A DNA stretch of 37,409 bases from the NCBI GenBank assembly GCA_903959175.1, contig CAJBVW010000604.1:1-37409 (forward strand). The letters are read 5' to 3'. Positions 30,474-37,409 of the stretch are shown in pieces. Below the pieces are notes generated by a model. It ran no database searches. It had not been told where the DNA came from and worked only from the letters and a program-made list of their open reading frames with translations. The translations under genes and the position numbers were made by a program. The stretch's first letter is position 1. Every line of letters starts with the position of its first letter. The stretch comes from an uncultured Pseudomonadota bacterium. Its GTDB lineage: Bacteria; Myxococcota_A; UBA796; SXON01.

Positions 30474-32081
30474 GTGCGTCTGCCCGCCTGCCTCCTCGCC
30501 TCCCTGTCCCTCGCCTGCACCGCCCCGACCGCCCCCGCGGCCCCCCTCGCGACCGGGGGCCCCGCGCTCTCCGCCGCCTCCGGCCGCAGCGCCGGCGACA
30601 CCGGGCGCGGCCTCGGCCTCACCTACGAGATCTACGTGCGCTCCTTCCAGGACTCCGACGGCGACGGCATCGGCGACCTCGAGGGCGTCCGCACGCGGCT
30701 CGACCACCTCGAGGCCATGGGCGTGCGCACCCTCTGGCTCATGCCCGTCTTCCCGAGCGTCGGGCCCGCCGGCTACGACGTGACCGACTTCGACCGCGTG
30801 CGCGCGGACTACGGCGACGCCGATGCGCTCTCCGCGCTGCTCGCGGACGCCCACGTGCGCGGCATGCGCGTCCTCCTCGACCTCCCCTTCAACCACGTCG
30901 CGCGGACCCACCCGTGGTTCGCCGCGGCCGAGGCCGATTCCGCGGCGCCCGAGCGCGATCTCTTCCTCTTCGCGGGCACCCAGTGGGACACCCACCGCTG
31001 GTTCCCGAGCGCGGCCGGCGACTACTACTACGGCTTCTTCGGCGCCGATCTCCCCGACCTCGACTGGACGAACGACGCGACGCGCGCGCGCATGTTCGAC
31101 GTGTTCGGCGCCTGGCTCGACGCGGGGGTGGACGGCTACCGGCTGGACGCGGTCACCACCCTCGTGGAGGCGGACGGCGCCATCACCAACACCGACGCGA
31201 CCCACGCGCTCCTGGCCGAGCTCTACGCGTACGCGGCCGACGTGAACCCCGACGCCGTCTTCCTCGCCGAGGCCGGCGAGCCCGACGTAGCCGACAACGC
31301 CGGCTTCCTCGGCACCGACGCCGCGCCGGAGAGCGACCGCGTGCTCGACTTCCCGCGCCGCACCGCGCTCCTTGAGGCCGTCGGCACCGGCACCCCCACG
31401 CCCCTCCTCGCGCTCCTCCAGGCCACCGAGGAGGCCGACGCCCTCGGCCGCACCGCTACCTTCGTGTCCTCGCACGACCTCGCGCGCCTCCCCGCCTTCG
31501 TCCCCGACGCCGCCGCGCGTCGCCTGCTGATGGTGCTCCAGCTCACCCTGCCCGGCGACCCGGTCCTCTACTACGGCGAGGAGCTCGACCTCGCGGACGC
31601 GACCACCGCCACCGGCCAGGACTACGCCCAGCGCGCCCCGATGCCCTGGGACAGCTCGCGCAACGCCGGCTTCTCGACGGGCAGCGCGTGGTTCACGCTG
31701 GATCCCGCCTACGCCGAGGGCCGCAACGTCGCCGGGGCCGTCGCGGACCCGGACAGCACGCTCAACCTCGTGCGAGACCTCGCCTGCGTGCGCGACGCCA
31801 TCGAGGGCGCCGCGTGGGAGCCCGTCGCAACCGACTCGGCGGCCGTGCTCGCGTACAGCCGCGCCACCGAGGCCGGCCGGATCGTGGTCGTCGCGAACCT
31901 CGGCGCGACCGCCACGCGCGAGCTGCGGATCGACGCGCACGGGGCCTTCCAGGACCTCACCCACGGCCTCGCCGGCGTCTACGCGGCCGACGGGCTTCGG
32001 ATCCAGGGGCTACCCGCCTACGGGTACGCCGTGTTCGCCGAAGAGATCGCGGCGGACTGCCCGGTCGCCGGTCCGGTGTAG
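30474..32081 (+). CDS. GH13 alpha-amylase-family lipoprotein
   Basis: 535 residues from GTG 30474. Lipobox SLAC (Cys15) follows a short signal; a Thr/Ala/Pro/Gly-rich tether leads to the TIM barrel at about residue 45. GH13 motifs: the calcium loop 'DSDGDGIGDLEG', region I D136-LPFN-H141, region II 'GVDGYRLDAV' with R223 and nucleophile D225, region III E266 (AEAGEP), region IV H334-D335 (SSHDLARL). The set resembles oligo-1,6-glucosidase/trehalose-synthase-like members more than classical alpha-amylases, so it probably cleaves or transfers short alpha-glucans at the cell surface. A beta-sandwich C-terminal domain ends with 'LPAYGYAVFAEE'. The usual Asn before His-Asp in region IV is Ser here. 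Confidence 0.9.
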   Translation: MRLPACLLASLSLACTAPTAPAAPLATGGPALSAASGRSAGDTGRGLGLTYEIYVRSFQDSDGDGIGDLEGVRTRLDHLEAMGVRTLWLMPVFPSVGPAGYDVTDFDRVRADYGDADALSALLADAHVRGMRVLLDLPFNHVARTHPWFAAAEADSAAPERDLFLFAGTQWDTHRWFPSAAGDYYYGFFGADLPDLDWTNDATRARMFDVFGAWLDAGVDGYRLDAVTTLVEADGAITNTDATHALLAELYAYAADVNPDAVFLAEAGEPDVADNAGFLGTDAAPESDRVLDFPRRTALLEAVGTGTPTPLLALLQATEEADALGRTATFVSSHDLARLPAFVPDAAARRLLMVLQLTLPGDPVLYYGEELDLADATTATGQDYAQRAPMPWDSSRNAGFSTGSAWFTLDPAYAEGRNVAGAVADPDSTLNLVRDLACVRDAIEGAAWEPVATDSAAVLAYSRATEAGRIVVVANLGATATRELRIDAHGAFQDLTHGLAGVYAADGLRIQGLPAYGYAVFAEEIAADCPVAGPV

Positions 32082-32117
32082 GTGCGGCGGCGCCCAGACG
32101 GGATATGGCGCGAACTT

Positions 32118-32194
32118 CGGGGCGTAGCTCAGTCTGGTAGAGCGCCTGCCTTGGGCGCAGGAGGTCATCGGTTCGAATCCGGCCGCCCCGACCA
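32118..32194 (+). tRNA. tRNA-Pro (anticodon TGG)
   Basis: Acceptor stem CGGGGCG (32118-32124) pairs with CGCCCCG (32184-32190), then A73 and encoded CCA (32192-32194). The anticodon stem CCTGC/GCAGG encloses loop CTTGGGC with anticodon TGG at 32152-32154, reading CCA and other proline codons by wobble. The T arm carries GGTTCGAATCC. The sequence directly downstream changes character and contains an integrase, so this gene is the probable attachment site of a mobile element. Confidence 0.97.
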
Positions 32195-32236
32195 CATTCA
32201 AAGCCCATAATTGCAGAGTCGCCTCCGCGACCACAG

Positions 32237-32260
32237 CGCGCTGGGTAACGCGCTGGGTAA
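32237..32260. repeat. Tandem 12-bp repeat near the element boundary
   Basis: CGCGCTGGGTAA occurs twice head to tail (32237-32248, 32249-32260), 43 bases after the tRNA. A small hairpin GTCGC-CTCC-GCGAC precedes it (32218-32231) and a perfect 14-base palindrome GAGCCCGCGGGCTC follows (32340-32353). These may be recombinase or excisionase arm sites. The rest of 32195-32425 shows no convincing gene. Confidence 0.4.
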
Positions 32261-32425
32261 CGGAGGGGCTTTGCATTGCGACGCATCGGCTCGACGGCTT
32301 ACGGAATCGACCGCCCGGCCAGGGCAGGCGTTCGGCCTGGAGCCCGCGGGCTCGTACACGCTCTTGCCGGGCGAGCGGGCGGAGCGATGCCACGCCCCGC
32401 CGGCCGTCAGGGAGGGGTGACGGGG

Positions 32426-33025
32426 CTACAGCTCGTCCACGAACTCGGACGGGCCAGGACGTCCGGATGGGGCAGTCTCGTTCATGACGGCTTCCACGGT
32501 CTTGATGACGACCAGTAGGAGACGCAGGAGCCTGGTCGTCGGCAGCTTGCTCGTGCGAGCCAAAGCCCACACCAGCTTCCTTGGAACCCGCCCACGGAGC
32601 GTGTCCTTCTCCAACAGGCAGGCGACGAGGACGCCCGAGATTCGAGCGATGTCTTGCGCGACGGTGCCTTCTTTCGCGCTCTGCGCGCGGTCGAGGGCGC
32701 GGAGCGTGAGGATGAGTTCCTCCTCGTGGTCGAGGAGCGTCGTCTCGCCGCGCTCAAGGTCGGCCTTGAGGTCGGCATAGGCCTCTGCGTCCGCGAGACG
32801 TAGGCGCTCGTCCCGCGCGAGACGCCAAACATCTGAAGCGGGCGCACCGAGCGCCGCCGCCAACACCATGCAGGTGGCGCGGTCAGGAGGCTTCAGGCGC
32901 CCTGCTTCGATCTGGGTGATCGTGCCGGGAGTCTTCTCGAGCGCCGCGTCAAGCTCCGCCTGAGAGACGCCAGCCTGACGGCGCCAGGTGCGGAGTGCCT
33001 GCGGGAACGGATCGGAGGAGGCCAT
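32426..33025 (-). CDS. XRE-family transcriptional repressor
   Basis: 199 residues. The N-terminal helix-turn-helix (about residues 9-65) reads 'ALRTWRRQAGVSQAELDAALEKTPGTITQIEAGRLKPPDRATCMVLAAALG', a typical Cro/C1 domain. The remaining 130 residues are helical ('DLKADLERGETTLLDHEEELILTLRALDRAQSAKEG') and end in a Leu/Arg-rich helix ('TTRLLRLLLVVIKTVEAVM') that could mediate dimerisation; no LexA-type protease or effector domain is seen. It diverges from the HTH/integrase genes across an inverted repeat (33081-33111), so it is probably the element's lysogeny-type repressor. ATG 33025 was chosen because the HTH starts immediately after it. Confidence 0.85.
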   Translation of the reverse strand: MASSDPFPQALRTWRRQAGVSQAELDAALEKTPGTITQIEAGRLKPPDRATCMVLAAALGAPASDVWRLARDERLRLADAEAYADLKADLERGETTLLDHEEELILTLRALDRAQSAKEGTVAQDIARISGVLVACLLEKDTLRGRVPRKLVWALARTSKLPTTRLLRLLLVVIKTVEAVMNETAPSGRPGPSEFVDEL

Positions 33026-33080
33026 CTGATTTCTTCGGGAAGGGTGACGAACGCGTAGACGTCCGGGAATCGCTGATGGT

Positions 33081-33111
33081 ATGTACAGGTCATAGGGCAT
33101 CACCTGCACAT
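33081..33111. promoter_or_regulatory. Inverted-repeat operator between repressor and HTH/integrase genes
   Basis: ATGTACAGGT (33081-33090) and ACCTGCACAT (33102-33111) are inverted copies with one mismatch in ten, separated by 11 bases. Half-site centres are 21 bases apart, two helical turns. The right half covers the ATG at 33110. It is the likely binding site of the XRE repressor. Confidence 0.55.
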
Positions 33112-33853
33112 GTTCTACGATTCTGGTTCGTCTCAAGTCATGCGAGTTCCTAACCCGGTCGCCTTCACCGACGACGACGGCGTGCCGTGGTTTCGCGTGG
33201 CCTCGGGACCCGTCGAGTACGAGTCCGAGCGCGAGATCTACTACGACGACGGTAGCTCCCTCACGCTCCGGCGGGTCCGGCTCCGTGTCGGCGCGGTGCT
33301 CGAGGACGTGGTGGTACACGAGGGCGACGAAAGTGTCGTCGTCATGCCGCCGGGGGACGAGGAGCGAGCGTTTCGGCTCGCCGAGCTCCATGCCCAGCGT
33401 CGCGTCGCGGGCGCCCTCGAGGCGTTGGTGACCACGCACCGGCCCGCCGAAGCCGCGGCTGAGCCCGTCGGCGAGTGGACCAGCCGCGACGGCGCCGCTC
33501 GCTGGCTCGGTGTCAGCGTCGACAAGCTGGACGATCTTCTCAAGGACCGACTCCGGCCCGCGGTGCGCTCGTTCGGGCGAACCGTTCTCGTTCACGTCCC
33601 TACAGCAAGGAGGCAGCTTGGCATCTCTCGCGAAGGAACAAAGGAAGAACCCCGCCAGTGGGCGGATGGAGACGTACTTCAAGATCGCGTACAAGGAGGG
33701 AACGAAGCAGCGGCGCGCCGCGCTGGGGTTCCTCTCCAAGACGGACGCAGAGGCGGCGCTGAGGCACTGGGAGGCGCGGCGCCTCCTCGGCCTCGAGTGC
33801 GAGCCGCTGACCGCTTCGCCCACCTCTCGCGTCGCGAGTCCGACCCTGGCTAA
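33110..33853 (+). CDS. Excisionase-like HTH protein, 3' part overlapping the integrase
   Basis: The open frame has 247 codons. Residues about 10-100 form a beta-rich domain ('VPWFRVASGPVEYESEREIYYDDGSSLTLRRVRLRVGAVLEDVVVHE'); residues about 123-170 resemble a MerR/Xis-type winged HTH ('SRDGAARWLGVSVDKLDDLLKDRLRPAVRSFGRTVLVHVPTARRQLG'). After about residue 170 the sequence becomes shadow-like because it overlaps the integrase frame for 236 bases. Either the protein really ends with an unrelated tail, or translation shifts +1 near AGG-AGG (33608-33613) to make an HTH-integrase fusion. No ribosome-binding site precedes ATG 33110; ATG 33140 is an alternative. Role: recombination directionality or control. 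Confidence 0.6.
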   Translation: MFYDSGSSQVMRVPNPVAFTDDDGVPWFRVASGPVEYESEREIYYDDGSSLTLRRVRLRVGAVLEDVVVHEGDESVVVMPPGDEERAFRLAELHAQRRVAGALEALVTTHRPAEAAAEPVGEWTSRDGAARWLGVSVDKLDDLLKDRLRPAVRSFGRTVLVHVPTARRQLGISREGTKEEPRQWADGDVLQDRVQGGNEAAARRAGVPLQDGRRGGAEALGGAAPPRPRVRAADRFAHLSRRESDPG

Positions 33854-34820
33854 GTGGTGGGGTGCGACGACGGACCCGTGGCCGGCCTGGCCGGAGTCCC
33901 GCATGCACGACTGGATCGTCGCCCAGGGCTTTGCGGAGAAGACTGTTCGAACCGCCGACTGCGCTCGGCGTGCCTTCCTGCCATTCCTGGGCGACAAGCG
34001 CCTCGACGCCATCACGGTCGCGGACGGTGACAGCTTCGTCTGCCGGCTTCGCGAGCGCGGCTGCCGGTCCCGCACGTGCCAGATCTACCTCGGCTGGTTC
34101 CAGCGCTCGCTCGACGTCGCCGCCAAGGACGGCGTCATCCCCACGGCCCCGAAGCTCAACACCGTCCCGGGGACGGACCGTCGAAGCTCGCCGTGGCTCA
34201 CTCCCGGCCAGACCCGGGAGTTGTACCAGGAGCTGGATCGGAGGGTGGACCTCGGCATCTGCCCGGCAGGCTCTGCTCTGGCCATCCGACTCGGCGAGAC
34301 GCTCTTCATGCGCCCCGGCGAGGTCCTGAACCGGCGATGGTCGGACATCCAGCGCGATCCGGACTGGAGCACCGGCGACATCTCGATCCGCGCGGTGAAC
34401 CTTCCGAACGGCAAGCGCTGGTCCCCGAAGAACAAGCCCAGCGTGCGAACGATCTCGAGCCCGCCCGAGCTCCTGCGCCGCCTGCGCGACCACTGGGTCG
34501 CGGCTGGCCAGCCGCGCGATGGGTGGATCTTCCCGGCGGAGGACGCCCCCGACAAGCCGCTGGGGTCGTTCAAAAAGGCCCTCGCTGGCGCCTGCCGCAC
34601 CATCGGCCTCCCGGTACTGAACCCGCACGCCCTGCGCCATACCGGCGCGACCCGCCTTGCCTTCGCCGGCGTCGAGCGGCGCACGACCATGAAGGTCGGC
34701 GGCTGGACCACCGGCGACATGCTCGACGAGATCTACGAGCACACGTCGGACCAGCGTGCCGCGGATGTCCTGAAGGCCAACGAGGTCGTTGGCGGCGGCG
34801 TGGGGGATGGTGGGTCGTGA
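33618..34820 (+). CDS. Tyrosine-type site-specific recombinase (integrase)
   Basis: 400 residues from TTG 33618, which lies 4 bases after a full AAGGAGG ribosome-binding site; the next likely in-frame Met is much deeper. Domains: an N-terminal AP2-like strand region ('ETYFKIAYKEGTKQRRAALGFLSKTDAEAALRHWEARR'), a SAM-like core-binding domain (about 95-190), and the catalytic domain with R232 (FMRPGEVL), H337-xx-R340-H341 (HALRHTG), W363 in the His/Trp position and nucleophile Y373 (EIYEH). All catalytic residues seem present. It should integrate the element into the tRNA-Pro 3' end, by analogy with tRNA-adjacent integrases. It overlaps the HTH gene in another frame. Confidence 0.88.
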   Translation: MASLAKEQRKNPASGRMETYFKIAYKEGTKQRRAALGFLSKTDAEAALRHWEARRLLGLECEPLTASPTSRVASPTLAKWWGATTDPWPAWPESRMHDWIVAQGFAEKTVRTADCARRAFLPFLGDKRLDAITVADGDSFVCRLRERGCRSRTCQIYLGWFQRSLDVAAKDGVIPTAPKLNTVPGTDRRSSPWLTPGQTRELYQELDRRVDLGICPAGSALAIRLGETLFMRPGEVLNRRWSDIQRDPDWSTGDISIRAVNLPNGKRWSPKNKPSVRTISSPPELLRRLRDHWVAAGQPRDGWIFPAEDAPDKPLGSFKKALAGACRTIGLPVLNPHALRHTGATRLAFAGVERRTTMKVGGWTTGDMLDEIYEHTSDQRAADVLKANEVVGGGVGDGGS

Positions 34821-34832
34821 GCGCGGCTGTCG

Positions 34833-35249
34833 ATGGTGGTGGACCTTGGTGATCTGTTCCCTTCCCTCCAACACGTCCCCCTCGCCCAGGTCGAGCACGC
34901 GTTCGACCCGGCGCTCGTGTCCGTGACCGCGGACGGCCGCGGCGATCTTGAGGCGTTCCTGGGTCGGGAGCTGCCCGAGACCTTCCGCCTGTTCACGCAC
35001 CTCGGCCACGTCTCGCACTGCCCCCGTCGCTACCCGTTCCTGCGGGTACCCCCGGCGGGATGGCGAGGTCGTACCTCCGGTGCCCCCGTTCTCAGCGACG
35101 GCCAGTACCGCGCGGCGAGCGCCTCGAGGGTCTTCACGGCGAGCCTGAAGAAGGGGATCCGGAATCGGCTCACGGCGATGCCGGGCGAGCTGACGGCGAA
35201 GCGCCCGCAGGCGGGGCCGGCTCTCGCCGACCCCGCCTGGGCCACGCCC
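34833..35249 (+). pseudogene. Coding-like remnant behind the integrase
   Basis: The frame from ATG 34833 shows strong G/C preference in third positions for about 70 codons ('VPLAQVEHAFDPALVSVTADGRGDLEAFLGRELPETFRLFTHLGHV') and again from about 35095 to 35235 ('RVFTASLKKGIRNRLTAMPGELTAKRPQ'), but loses it between about 35040 and 35090. The frame then runs on without a stop into the antisense of well-supported minus-strand genes. It may be a small element gene truncated at its 3' end, or a gene with compensating frameshifts. No family recognised. The stretch 34821-35249 holds no other convincing gene. Confidence 0.25.
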
Positions 35250-35414
35250 CTACTTCTTCCCGCTCGCCGGCGGCACCTTGCCCTGGTTGGCGTTCTTGTC
35301 GCCGGCGCCCTGCGCCCGCTCCTTGAAGCCCTGGTTGGTGCCGCTCTTGTCGGCCTGGCTCTGGATGCGCGAGGCATCCTTCGGCGTCATCGGGGTCTGC
35401 TTCTTGTCCGACAT
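35250..35414 (-). CDS. SMP-like small protein of mobile elements
   Basis: 54 residues. The sequence 'PMTPKDASRIQSQADKSGTNQGFKERAQGAGDKNANQG' resembles the short seed-maturation-protein-like (SMP) polypeptides common on plasmids and integrative elements, whose usual form is M-T-P-x-A-A-x-R-I-Q-S followed by F-x-x-R-A-Q-x-A-A. It is hydrophilic, rich in Lys, Gln, Asn and Ala, without a signal or membrane segment, and likely disordered. Function unknown. AAGGAG lies about 10 bases before ATG 35414. It precedes, on the same strand, nothing obvious; the radical SAM gene ends 87 bases upstream of it, so it may be the last gene of that transcript. Confidence 0.7.
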   Translation of the reverse strand: MSDKKQTPMTPKDASRIQSQADKSGTNQGFKERAQGAGDKNANQGKVPPASGKK

Positions 35415-35501
35415 GGGCTCGGATCTCCTTGTTGGTTGTGCCCTTTCGGGCGGTGCACCACCGACCCGCGGAATGCGAGCGGCGGAAGGGGGCGAGCACG
35501 C

Positions 35502-36755
35502 TCAGGCCGCGCCCGACGGATCGGAAGAGTCGGGCGGGTCGAGGCGCTCGGCGAGCGCCCTCATCGCCAGCCACTCCGCGTTCGAGAAGCTGGACGACGC
35601 ATTCACGACGGGGATCTCGTCGTCGCTCTCGACGAGGCCCCAGCGGGCGCGGTCCCGGTCGAGTCCGGTCCCGCGCAGCAGCATCAGCGGGAACGCCTTC
35701 AGCGTGGAGACACCGCGCTCCTGGCACCACTGGACGCTGGCCTCGAACGCGGCGACAGTCTGCTCAGGCAGCCCGTAGATGAGCGACACCTCGAAGGCGA
35801 TCCCCCGACGATGGAGCGCCGCGATCACGGCTTCTGCCTTCGCGAGGTCGTTCATGCGACCCACCGCCCGCATCTCCGCCCGTTGCACGGTCTGGAGGCC
35901 GAACTCCAGGCGAATGTCGAGCCCCTTGCAGGCGTCCAGGAACTCGTCGTCGATCAGCTCGAACCGCGACTGGAGCGAGATTCGGCCGCTGAAGCCGCCT
36001 TCTCGGAACCTGCGCAGTATGTCCACGGCGGCAGGATTCGAGTGGAAGATAGGGTCGAGCACGGCGATGTCCCGGGCTCCGCCGCGCACGAAGCACTCGA
36101 TTTCTGCGGCCGTGCGCGCGGGCGCGAGGACGTTCTGCCGTAGGCGGGAGCCCGACTCCCGGTGCTGGCAGAAGGTGCACGCGTAGATGCAGCCGCGCTG
36201 GGTCTCCCACCGCACGAACCCGCTCGGTGGCAACGCGCCACCCAAGAAGGGAGAGGGCAGGCGCCGGAGGTCAACCGACGCCGGAAGCTCGGACACGTCG
36301 TGCCCGCGCCGGCTCACCCCGACAAGATCGACGGGCGCGTCGGTGGCCACGACGGCCGCAAGCGCGTCCTCGGCGTAGCCCCGGATGAAGATGTCCGCGT
36401 CCGGATACGTGCGGTCGATACCGGGCGGTGCGTAGCTGATCTGCGGCCCGCCCAGGATGATCCTTCCCGCGAAGCCGGACTGCCGGAGCGCAGGGAGGAG
36501 CCACTGCACCACGGGCTCGTTCCAGACGTAGGCGCCGATGGCCACGTCGGCCTGGCCATTGCGCGTCGCGGCGAGGACCGCCGCGAGGACCGCCGACCGC
36601 GTGAACGCCGGGTCGTTGACGGCAAAGGCGACGGGCGTGACCACGAGGTCACGGACCTCCACCAGGCGGGCCAGGAGCGAGGCGTGACCGAGGGAGGTCC
36701 GCGGGTCCTTGGGCCTGATCCAGTCGAGGGAGACGAGAACGAGGTGGCGGCTCAT
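35502..36755 (-). CDS. Cobalamin-binding-type radical SAM protein
   Basis: 417 residues. Residues 1-160 have the Rossmann-like layout of a B12-binding domain of class B radical SAM enzymes ('LVLVSLDW', 'ADVAIGAYVWNEPVVQWLLPALRQSGFAGRIILGGPQISYAP', 'ADIFIRGYAEDAL'), without the classical DxHxxG base-off motif. The radical SAM core has C189-x3-C193-x2-C196 (RGCIYACTFC), 'DIAVLDPIFHSNP' and 'RLEFGLQTVQRAEMRAVGR', with 'FEVSLIYGLPEQTVAAFEASV' near the end. Such enzymes methylate unreactive carbons or carry out other B12-dependent radical steps, on peptides, lipids or small molecules. Its start overlaps the DUF4258 stop (ATGA, 36752-36755). Substrate unknown; no precursor peptide is obvious. Confidence 0.85.
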   Translation of the reverse strand: MSRHLVLVSLDWIRPKDPRTSLGHASLLARLVEVRDLVVTPVAFAVNDPAFTRSAVLAAVLAATRNGQADVAIGAYVWNEPVVQWLLPALRQSGFAGRIILGGPQISYAPPGIDRTYPDADIFIRGYAEDALAAVVATDAPVDLVGVSRRGHDVSELPASVDLRRLPSPFLGGALPPSGFVRWETQRGCIYACTFCQHRESGSRLRQNVLAPARTAAEIECFVRGGARDIAVLDPIFHSNPAAVDILRRFREGGFSGRISLQSRFELIDDEFLDACKGLDIRLEFGLQTVQRAEMRAVGRMNDLAKAEAVIAALHRRGIAFEVSLIYGLPEQTVAAFEASVQWCQERGVSTLKAFPLMLLRGTGLDRDRARWGLVESDDEIPVVNASSSFSNAEWLAMRALAERLDPPDSSDPSGAA

Positions 36756-37003
36756 GCGGCCCGCCCATCAAGCCAGTGCGCCGTGACGACGCGGCGACGG
36801 AAGCCGTCGACGACGACCCGCAGCCCATCCTGGAAGTCCCCGCCGCAGCGGCACGCGAGTTCCCGGGCGGTGAGCGTGAAGATCTGGCCGCGCCCGTAGA
36901 CTTGGGGCCGACTGCCGACAACTGCGTCGACCCAGCGGCGCAGGATGCCGCGTTCATCTAGGCGCTGGAGCGCGTGTTGGGAGTAGCGGAGACGCTGGGG
37001 CAT
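36752..37003 (-). CDS. DUF4258-type small protein
   Basis: 83 residues from ATG 37003, 4 bases after AAGGAG; an upstream in-frame extension passes through the operator and is rejected. The sequence 'RYSQHALQRLDERGILRRWVDAVV' followed by a beta-rich part ('QVYGRGQIFTLTARELACRCGGDFQDGLRVVVDGFRRRVVTAHW') matches DUF4258 proteins, a RelE/BrnT-like fold group often suspected to be small RNases or toxin-like. Two Cys flank Arg (CRCGG). It is translationally coupled to the radical SAM gene, so a stand-alone toxin is not the only possibility: it may be the enzyme's partner or substrate carrier. No antitoxin is visible beside it. Confidence 0.7.
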   Translation of the reverse strand: MPQRLRYSQHALQRLDERGILRRWVDAVVGSRPQVYGRGQIFTLTARELACRCGGDFQDGLRVVVDGFRRRVVTAHWLDGRAA

Positions 37004-37044
37004 TGAACTCCTTGAGGTGCCCCCGCATCGTAGGTCGCCCATGC

Positions 37045-37113
37045 CCGTACGGAGCCGTACGGAGTCCGTAGGCACGCGCATGATCGAGCGTTAGTCTACG
37101 GAGTCCGTACGGA
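37045..37113. promoter_or_regulatory. Paired palindromic operator between divergent element genes
   Basis: TACGGAGTCCGTA (TACGGA-N-TCCGTA) occurs at 37058-37070 and 37097-37109. Extra TACGGA half-sites lie at 37048-37053 and 37108-37113, so half-sites are spaced 10 and 11 bases within each cluster and the two palindrome centres are 39 bases apart. It separates the DUF4258 gene (minus) from the gene at 37160 (plus) and should control one or both. Confidence 0.6.
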
Positions 37114-37159
37114 CATCTCGGCAGCCCGACGAGTCATCCTTCCAGCCACCGGAGGCCCG

Positions 37160-37409
37160 ATGCCTGAATCCCACGACCTCACCCCCCGCCAGAGGGCGGC
37201 CTGGTGCGCACAGATCGGCGCGCTCTTCTTGAAGGAGGGAAACTGTTCCAAGCTGGCCGAGAAGGGTGGCTTCGGTGAGCGAAACGCGAAGACCGTCGCC
37301 GGCTACATCGGCGAGTTTCGGGACGGGAAGCCTCGCGCGCTCCGGTATTTCCTCGGGGAGCCGGCCCGCCTGGACCGGCTGGCGAAGGCGCTCGACTCGG
37401 ACGCCGACA
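37160..37409 (+). CDS. Start of an unknown element protein (truncated by window end)
   Basis: 83 codons are present and the frame is still open at the end. ATG 37160 follows GGAGG by 4 bases. The sequence 'LTPRQRAAWCAQIGALFLKEGNCSKLAEKGGFGERNAKTVAGYIGEFRDGKPRALRYFLGEPARLDRLAKAL' is helical, and its second half looks like a helix-turn-helix or a small N-terminal domain seen in front of signalling ATPases. I do not recognise the family. It is divergent from the DUF4258/radical SAM pair and shares their palindromic control region, so it may encode their regulator or another cargo function. Confidence 0.65.
   Translation, partial: MPESHDLTPRQRAAWCAQIGALFLKEGNCSKLAEKGGFGERNAKTVAGYIGEFRDGKPRALRYFLGEPARLDRLAKALDSDAD

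Follow-up and report, generated by a model that had tools for sequence, protein, structure and literature searches.

A cobalamin-type radical SAM enzyme gene coupled to a DUF4258 toxin-like gene as a possible viperin-like antiviral module

Contig CAJBVW010000604.1 (C604), part of the 7.2-Mb draft genome of an uncultured bacterium placed in Myxococcota_A, was analysed over its whole length of 37,409 nucleotides, here called the window. Near one end it carries a gene for a cobalamin-type radical SAM (S-adenosylmethionine) enzyme coupled to a gene for a small DUF4258-like protein, and with a probability of roughly 45% this pair is read here as an antiviral module that resembles viperin, probably acts on nucleotides and includes a coupled toxin. 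Bacteria and animals share viperin, an enzyme of defence that makes antiviral nucleotides. The reading draws on gene order and overlap, predicted folds, cofactor motifs and recurrence, and on a pool of partner genes and a cassette that the enzyme has in common with viperin.

Organisation of the locus

The components of the candidate module in the window are the following.

35502-36755, minus strand: cobalamin-type radical SAM enzyme, 417 amino acids, PADLOC candidate PDC-M51A (PF04055 1e-13; PDC-M51A E 4.5e-138)
36752-37003, minus strand: DUF4258-like, predicted BECR-fold toxin-like protein, 83 amino acids (PF14076 20.7 bits; fold model)
37045-37114, no strand: putative operator lying between the divergent genes, with two TACGGAGTCCGTA palindromes at a distance of 39 bp and with CCGTACGG boxes
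37160-37409, plus strand: divergent putative sensor/regulator gene, start only, cut by the contig end (similarity to cassette L168)
35250-35414, minus strand: 54-residue "RIQS" protein on the 3' side of the enzyme gene, probable accessory (recurrence)

The ATGA overlap of the two genes, the palindromic operator and the divergent gene, all named in a preliminary description of this DNA, are present. The DUF4258 open reading frame lies upstream of the enzyme gene and shares the ATGA with it; its likely start is at 37003, giving 83 residues, and the frame is open as far as 37081. At 37055-37112 the operator region contains an inverted repeat of 17 nt with 94% complementarity.

A cassette shared with viperin

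The exchange with viperin is seen in G208, a genome of the same genus as that of the window, which has two copies of the 54-residue gene, one of them in a matching cassette, L168. This cassette consists of a divergent 1015-residue gene, viperin, a DUF2325-like gene and the 54-residue gene; its viperin matches viperins of the PDB at E 1e-46, and its operator palindrome occurs in two copies 38 bp apart, against 39 bp in the window. In L168, viperin and the DUF2325-like gene stand in place of the enzyme and DUF4258. The TACGGASTCCGTA motif is found in two copies at the window operator and in two at L168, and its six matches in 1.8 Mb of loci are read as L168 plus two loci that copy the window. 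The N-terminal 83 residues encoded by the divergent fragment of the window are 40% identical to the 1015-residue protein (E 6e-12); L168 alone was matched, homology to the divergent genes of two other loci, L042 and L117, being undetectable.

The association extends beyond a single cassette. Viperin is present in 32 of the 377 genomes of the phylum (36 matches), and 30 of these loci, taken with up to 1.5 kb on each side, were searched with profiles built from the partners of the enzyme. Twelve matched (DUF2325-like in four, DUF4258 in three, kinase in four and zinc ribbon in one, the 54-residue gene being found in one of the 12), while no match was obtained at 30 other B12-type radical SAM loci, which came from an HpnJ search passing no cut-off (0/63 genomes), or in 20 random regions (315 kb); the sharing of partners with viperin loci has a Fisher value of 6e-5. 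The corresponding count at the loci of the enzyme family itself, 11 of 18, is partly circular, since the profiles derive from such loci, a circularity that does not affect the viperin count. Between the kinase linked to viperin in L183 and the kinase of L042 identity is 49%, and ATGA overlaps between viperin and DUF4258 occur in L189 and L195. In L186 and L205, viperin and a thymidylate-kinase-like domain share one open frame, apparently as a fusion. The genome of the window also holds a viperin of its own on another contig (G000:C56:54305-55120, L190), 53% identical to that of G208.

The radical SAM enzyme

The names given to the two proteins in the preliminary description, B12-type radical SAM and DUF4258, have weak Pfam scores and are backed by model matches to CysS/TokK and to BECR RNases, respectively. 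In Pfam, the enzyme matches Radical_SAM at 1e-13, and its B12-binding score of 22.4 bits stays below the cut-off of 32.1. A model of the enzyme built with AlphaFold2 (AF2) from 58 aligned sequences (predicted local distance difference test, pLDDT, 93.2) resembles the cobalamin-dependent CysS and TokK, with a template modelling (TM) score of about 0.8, and OxsB, with a TM of 0.67. The cluster cysteines of the CxxxCxxC motif, C189, C193 and C196, are invariant in 58/58 aligned relatives together with W78, which aligns with Trp76 of TokK, the residue under the cobalt as described in the available part of PMC13331322. Because of these invariant cysteines and of the equivalence of W78 with Trp76, the enzyme looks active and cobalamin-dependent; the fold match to CysS/TokK and W78 also support the presence of a cobalamin-binding Rossmann domain with its lower-face residue.

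The PADLOC model PDC-M51A matches the enzyme with 458.6 bits over residues 2-407, against positions 4-413 of a 420-position profile, and it likewise matches 58/58 aligned relatives. When the enzyme or its profile was compared with PDB sequences no viperin chain was among the matches, and by sequence the enzyme is not of the viperin family. By eye, seven of 18 enzymes end in Ala-Ala and so look degradation-tag-like, an ending that high guanine-plus-cytosine content may produce by chance. In L109, from a Candidatus Ruthturnera metagenome-assembled genome, the family enzyme is split over two frames and is probably broken.

The DUF4258 partner

The DUF4258 protein of the window scores 20.7 bits against PF14076, under the curated cut-off of 25, and its relatives from L063, L071 and L032 exceed that cut-off. 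Its AF2 model (pLDDT 88.8) matches colicin E5 RNase (Z 7.0), BrnT, RelE, HigB and ParE ahead of other folds, and rows 1-22 of the structure matches are toxins, RNases or complexes of toxin-antitoxin or contact-dependent inhibition systems; the leading matches, colicin E5, BrnT and RelE, have Z 6-7, a range (Z <8) in which a common arrangement of elements can suffice, and other folds start at Z 4.3. With Foldseek alone, no match to this model fell below 1e-3. On the model, the protein is predicted to be a BECR-fold, RNase-type toxin-like protein, in line with a survey whose available part counts DUF4258 among the BECR toxin families, with target unknown (PMC11980606). Its toxin core looks intact, because H10, R14, R18, I20 and T74 are invariant in 9/9 aligned DUF4258 proteins. 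It matched no PADLOC model, and no small antitoxin-like open reading frame was recognised next to it, its neighbours being the enzyme and the divergent gene.

In G087, a genome of the same taxonomic family as that of the window, a DUF4258 gene whose product is 70% identical is followed at once by the region of the 54-residue gene (88% identical DNA), the enzyme gene being exactly absent between the two; the genome of G087 contains no member of the enzyme family at E 1e-30. Since G087 keeps DUF4258 without the enzyme, the latter is not required as an antitoxin and forms a cassette that can be removed. This bears on the toxin modification suggested in the preliminary description, a type VII-like toxin-antitoxin arrangement in which the enzyme would modify the DUF4258 protein and thereby silence or activate it. 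Overlapping translation in a fixed ratio and the lack of a recognised conventional antitoxin gene beside DUF4258 agree with such an arrangement, but the idea is weakened because DUF4258 persists without the enzyme in G087 and also occurs beside viperin; moreover, the partners of the enzyme look unrelated to one another (BECR, HicA-like, zinc ribbon, DUF2325-like), so that no common modified site is expected, and toxin modification appears distinctly unlikely.

The 54-residue protein

The 54-residue gene is rare, with 13 copies in 12/377 genomes of the phylum, and five of the 13 are near a family enzyme or, in G087, beside its DUF4258. A protein with the pattern "RIQS..ADK..TNQ.FK.RAQ" recurs beside the enzyme, DUF4258 and viperin, at 35250-35414 of the window, at 8127-8291 of L117, at 6032-6187 of L168, and in L032, L034 and L074. 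It has no match in NCBIfam and nothing over the cut-off in Pfam; in some other genomes the gene adjoins larger proteins whose N-terminus is helix-turn-helix-like by eye. Peptides are substrates of other cobalamin radical SAM enzymes, and the enzyme could act, in the manner of maturation enzymes for ribosomally synthesised and post-translationally modified peptides (RiPPs), on a small peptide such as this one, a possibility raised by a gene so rare that nevertheless recurs beside the enzyme. Peptide modification is hardly probable, however, given that the gene is near the enzyme in just 4/75 loci and also stands next to viperin in L168 and, the enzyme being absent, next to DUF4258 in G087.

Distribution and partner genes

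The enzyme family is patchy: it occurs in 18/377 genomes of the phylum and at 72 loci of the genome collection, in records titled as Myxococcota, Planctomycetota, Pseudomonadota, Bacteroidota and Archaea. One close relative (L041) is in a record named Klebsiella pneumoniae, an organism name that is doubtful. Once duplicates had been removed, 75 loci remained, and the flanks of each were scanned over at most 7 kb per side, some of the loci being cut by contig ends. The preliminary description had made recurrence of the pair its test, and the pair does recur: DUF4258 is found in 9/75 loci, in Myxococcota and Bacteroidota, and in 9/9 it is directly adjacent to the enzyme, six times in front and three times behind, the spacing ranging between an overlap of 29 nt and a gap of 1 nt. 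At least six changes of the DUF4258 label are required on an enzyme tree of 63 rows, and for this reason the pairing is taken to have been gained, or lost, repeatedly. The two genes might still have no function in common, the enzyme being an ordinary methyltransferase of secondary metabolism and the toxin gene a stray neighbour: the fold is nearest to CysS/TokK, and DUF4258 genes occur commonly across the phylum (80/377 genomes). The invariable adjacency of DUF4258 within the 7 kb, the repeated label changes and the lack of such partners at the 30 other B12-type radical SAM loci nonetheless make a chance neighbourhood very improbable.

Among the other partners, ParE-like proteins are found in seven of the 75 loci, HicA-like in four, DUF2325-like in four and zinc-ribbon in three; HicA matches in L060 and L052 and a zinc-ribbon match in L050 were shadow frames or on the opposite strand and were dropped. 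Together with DUF4258, the ParE-like and HicA-like genes put toxin-like partners in 20/75 loci; none was found in 55. A thymidylate-kinase-like gene is present in 25/75 loci, just behind the enzyme in 24, and the PADLOC model PDC-M51B matches 24/24 of these kinases; an initial cluster of 41 "kinase" loci was mixed with shadow frames and was cut to 25. Genes further in front of the pair vary and include a CHAT peptidase (L032), subtilase, ankyrin and P-loop NTPase, as well as the Ser/Thr kinases of L058 and L063. Ser/Thr kinase-like proteins lie near the enzyme in L058, L063 and L044 (L044 judged by eye); those of L058 and L063 match PADLOC PD-T4-6, and L058 also has a sigma-70-like gene.

The recurrence of toxin-like folds could be explained by restriction and protection at the RNA level, where the enzyme would methylate the tRNA, rRNA or other target of a DUF4258, ParE-like or HicA-like RNase, so that host RNA is protected until infection tips the balance; the fold of MiaB, whose substrate is tRNA, is also similar to that of the enzyme. 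RNA protection is unlikely, however: G087 retains its DUF4258 with no family enzyme, most loci have no toxin-like partner found, DUF4258 pairs with viperin too, and the kinase partner is left unexplained.

Proposed role

For the pair we infer a function in defence, a nucleotide substrate, toxin activity and a mode of regulation. It would supply the effectors of an antiviral module under the control of a sensor, in which the enzyme fills the role held by viperin in the sister cassette. Because viperin's cassette, a nucleotide kinase and toxin-like helpers are common to both, the enzyme most likely alters a nucleotide into an analogue that poisons replication or transcription. Viperins make chain-terminating 3'-deoxy-3',4'-didehydro (ddh) nucleotides, as stated in the available part of PMC10732462, and OxsB, a cobalamin radical SAM enzyme acting on dAMP/dADP/dATP according to the available part of PMC13331322, shows that deoxyadenosine phosphates are possible substrates for an enzyme of this type. 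The nucleotide may be supplied or charged, in many loci, by the thymidylate-kinase-like partner, and the window would need the cell's own kinases. DUF4258, made in a fixed ratio through overlapping translation, would be a second, growth-arresting effector, and the product of the divergent gene may bind the palindromic operator and release or activate the effectors on infection.

Several points weigh against this proposal. The closest structures to the enzyme are natural-product methyltransferases, not nucleotide enzymes; the sharing of partners with viperin is an association and not chemistry, and it could mean a shared trigger instead of a shared chemistry. The window has no thymidylate-kinase-like gene, the only kinase match in its genome being on contig C64 at E 2.9e-8, and its sensor is represented solely by the 83-residue fragment. 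The preliminary description had held that DUF4258 genes lying mostly elsewhere would refute a functional pair, and to the letter they do lie elsewhere, as 2/30 of the DUF4258 loci examined adjoin the enzyme; because so few do, DUF4258 is read as a toxin family of general occurrence that the system has recruited, which the count fits. A defensive role, also put forward there, gains from the PDC-M51A match and the exchange with viperin, but known defence genes are not commoner around 17 myxobacterial loci than in controls, in a comparison of 84 of 123 neighbour proteins (90 drawn, six kinase or DUF4258 proteins dropped) with 84 control proteins, chosen from 210 by drawing 90 and leaving out the last six, where the top family had three members against two. 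The expectation that the pair recurs on phages found no support: two scans of viral contigs gave no relative of the enzyme, viral contigs held none of DUF4258, phages gave one enzyme match, 22% identical, and the plasmid matches listed are all below 30% identity.

A stronger version of the viperin-like reading, which we put forward only tentatively and regard as doubtful, is that the family is a second, independently evolved viperin, B12-dependent and making an antiviral nucleotide, swapped cassette for cassette with true viperins, with which it would have the sensor, operator, kinases and toxin-like helpers in common; in the form with DUF4258, an RNase-type toxin would be added as second effector. 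The core of enzyme and kinase is already catalogued as the defence candidate PDC-M51; in the available part of a paper on archaeal immunity, PDCs are said to come from guilt-by-embedding, with validation pending for most (PMC12988326). In the literature searched, bioRxiv being outside its scope, the toxin partners, the viperin exchange and the common partner pool were not found, nor was a paper joining DUF4258 with radical SAM or one naming PDC-M51. If the B12-dependent enzyme is viperin's interchangeable counterpart, there may be a second chemistry for antiviral nucleotides, from which new chain terminators could be obtained. The proposal also offers a testable role for PDC-M51, an unnamed candidate family, and suggests that toxins of the DUF4258 type act alongside enzymes that alter nucleotides.

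Element context

Two further features of the window concern the mobile element proposed in the preliminary description.

33510-34820, plus strand: tyrosine recombinase of a probable integrative element (PF00589 3.4e-12)
32118-32194, plus strand: tRNA-Pro, possible integration site (ARAGORN)

The recombinase gene, 1.3 kb behind tRNA-Pro, is the one feature that speaks for such an element; no flanking attachment (att) repeat was detected in the stretch searched, 31900-37409, and the other end of the element would be beyond the contig.

Comparison with known systems

With RelE/ParE-type BECR toxins the DUF4258 protein of the window shares the predicted fold and has its own conserved set of H10, R14, R18, I20 and T74, and it differs from them in having no recognised antitoxin gene and in being coupled to a radical enzyme. 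CysS and TokK are like the enzyme in their cobalamin domain and radical SAM core, and the equivalent of TokK Trp76 is invariant in the family of the window; identity is about 20%, however, the enzyme is shorter (417 against about 650 residues), and, unlike them, it sits with toxin-like and kinase genes. OxsB, of oxetanocin A biosynthesis, is a cobalamin radical SAM enzyme matched by fold, with weak sequence similarity (E 2e-4) and an extra N-terminal domain; in the available part of PMC13331322 it works with the phosphohydrolase OxsA and not with a kinase. In PDC-M51 terms, the M51B kinase is absent from the window, whose DUF4258 is outside the PADLOC models, and the enzyme is therefore an M51A homologue and not part of a complete two-gene PDC-M51. 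Viperin belongs to a different enzyme family, the enzyme of the window having an added cobalamin domain, whereas the surroundings are alike: the operator, a related divergent sensor and the 54-residue gene are common to the window and G208, and the accessory families DUF4258, DUF2325-like, zinc ribbon and kinase are common to both enzymes.
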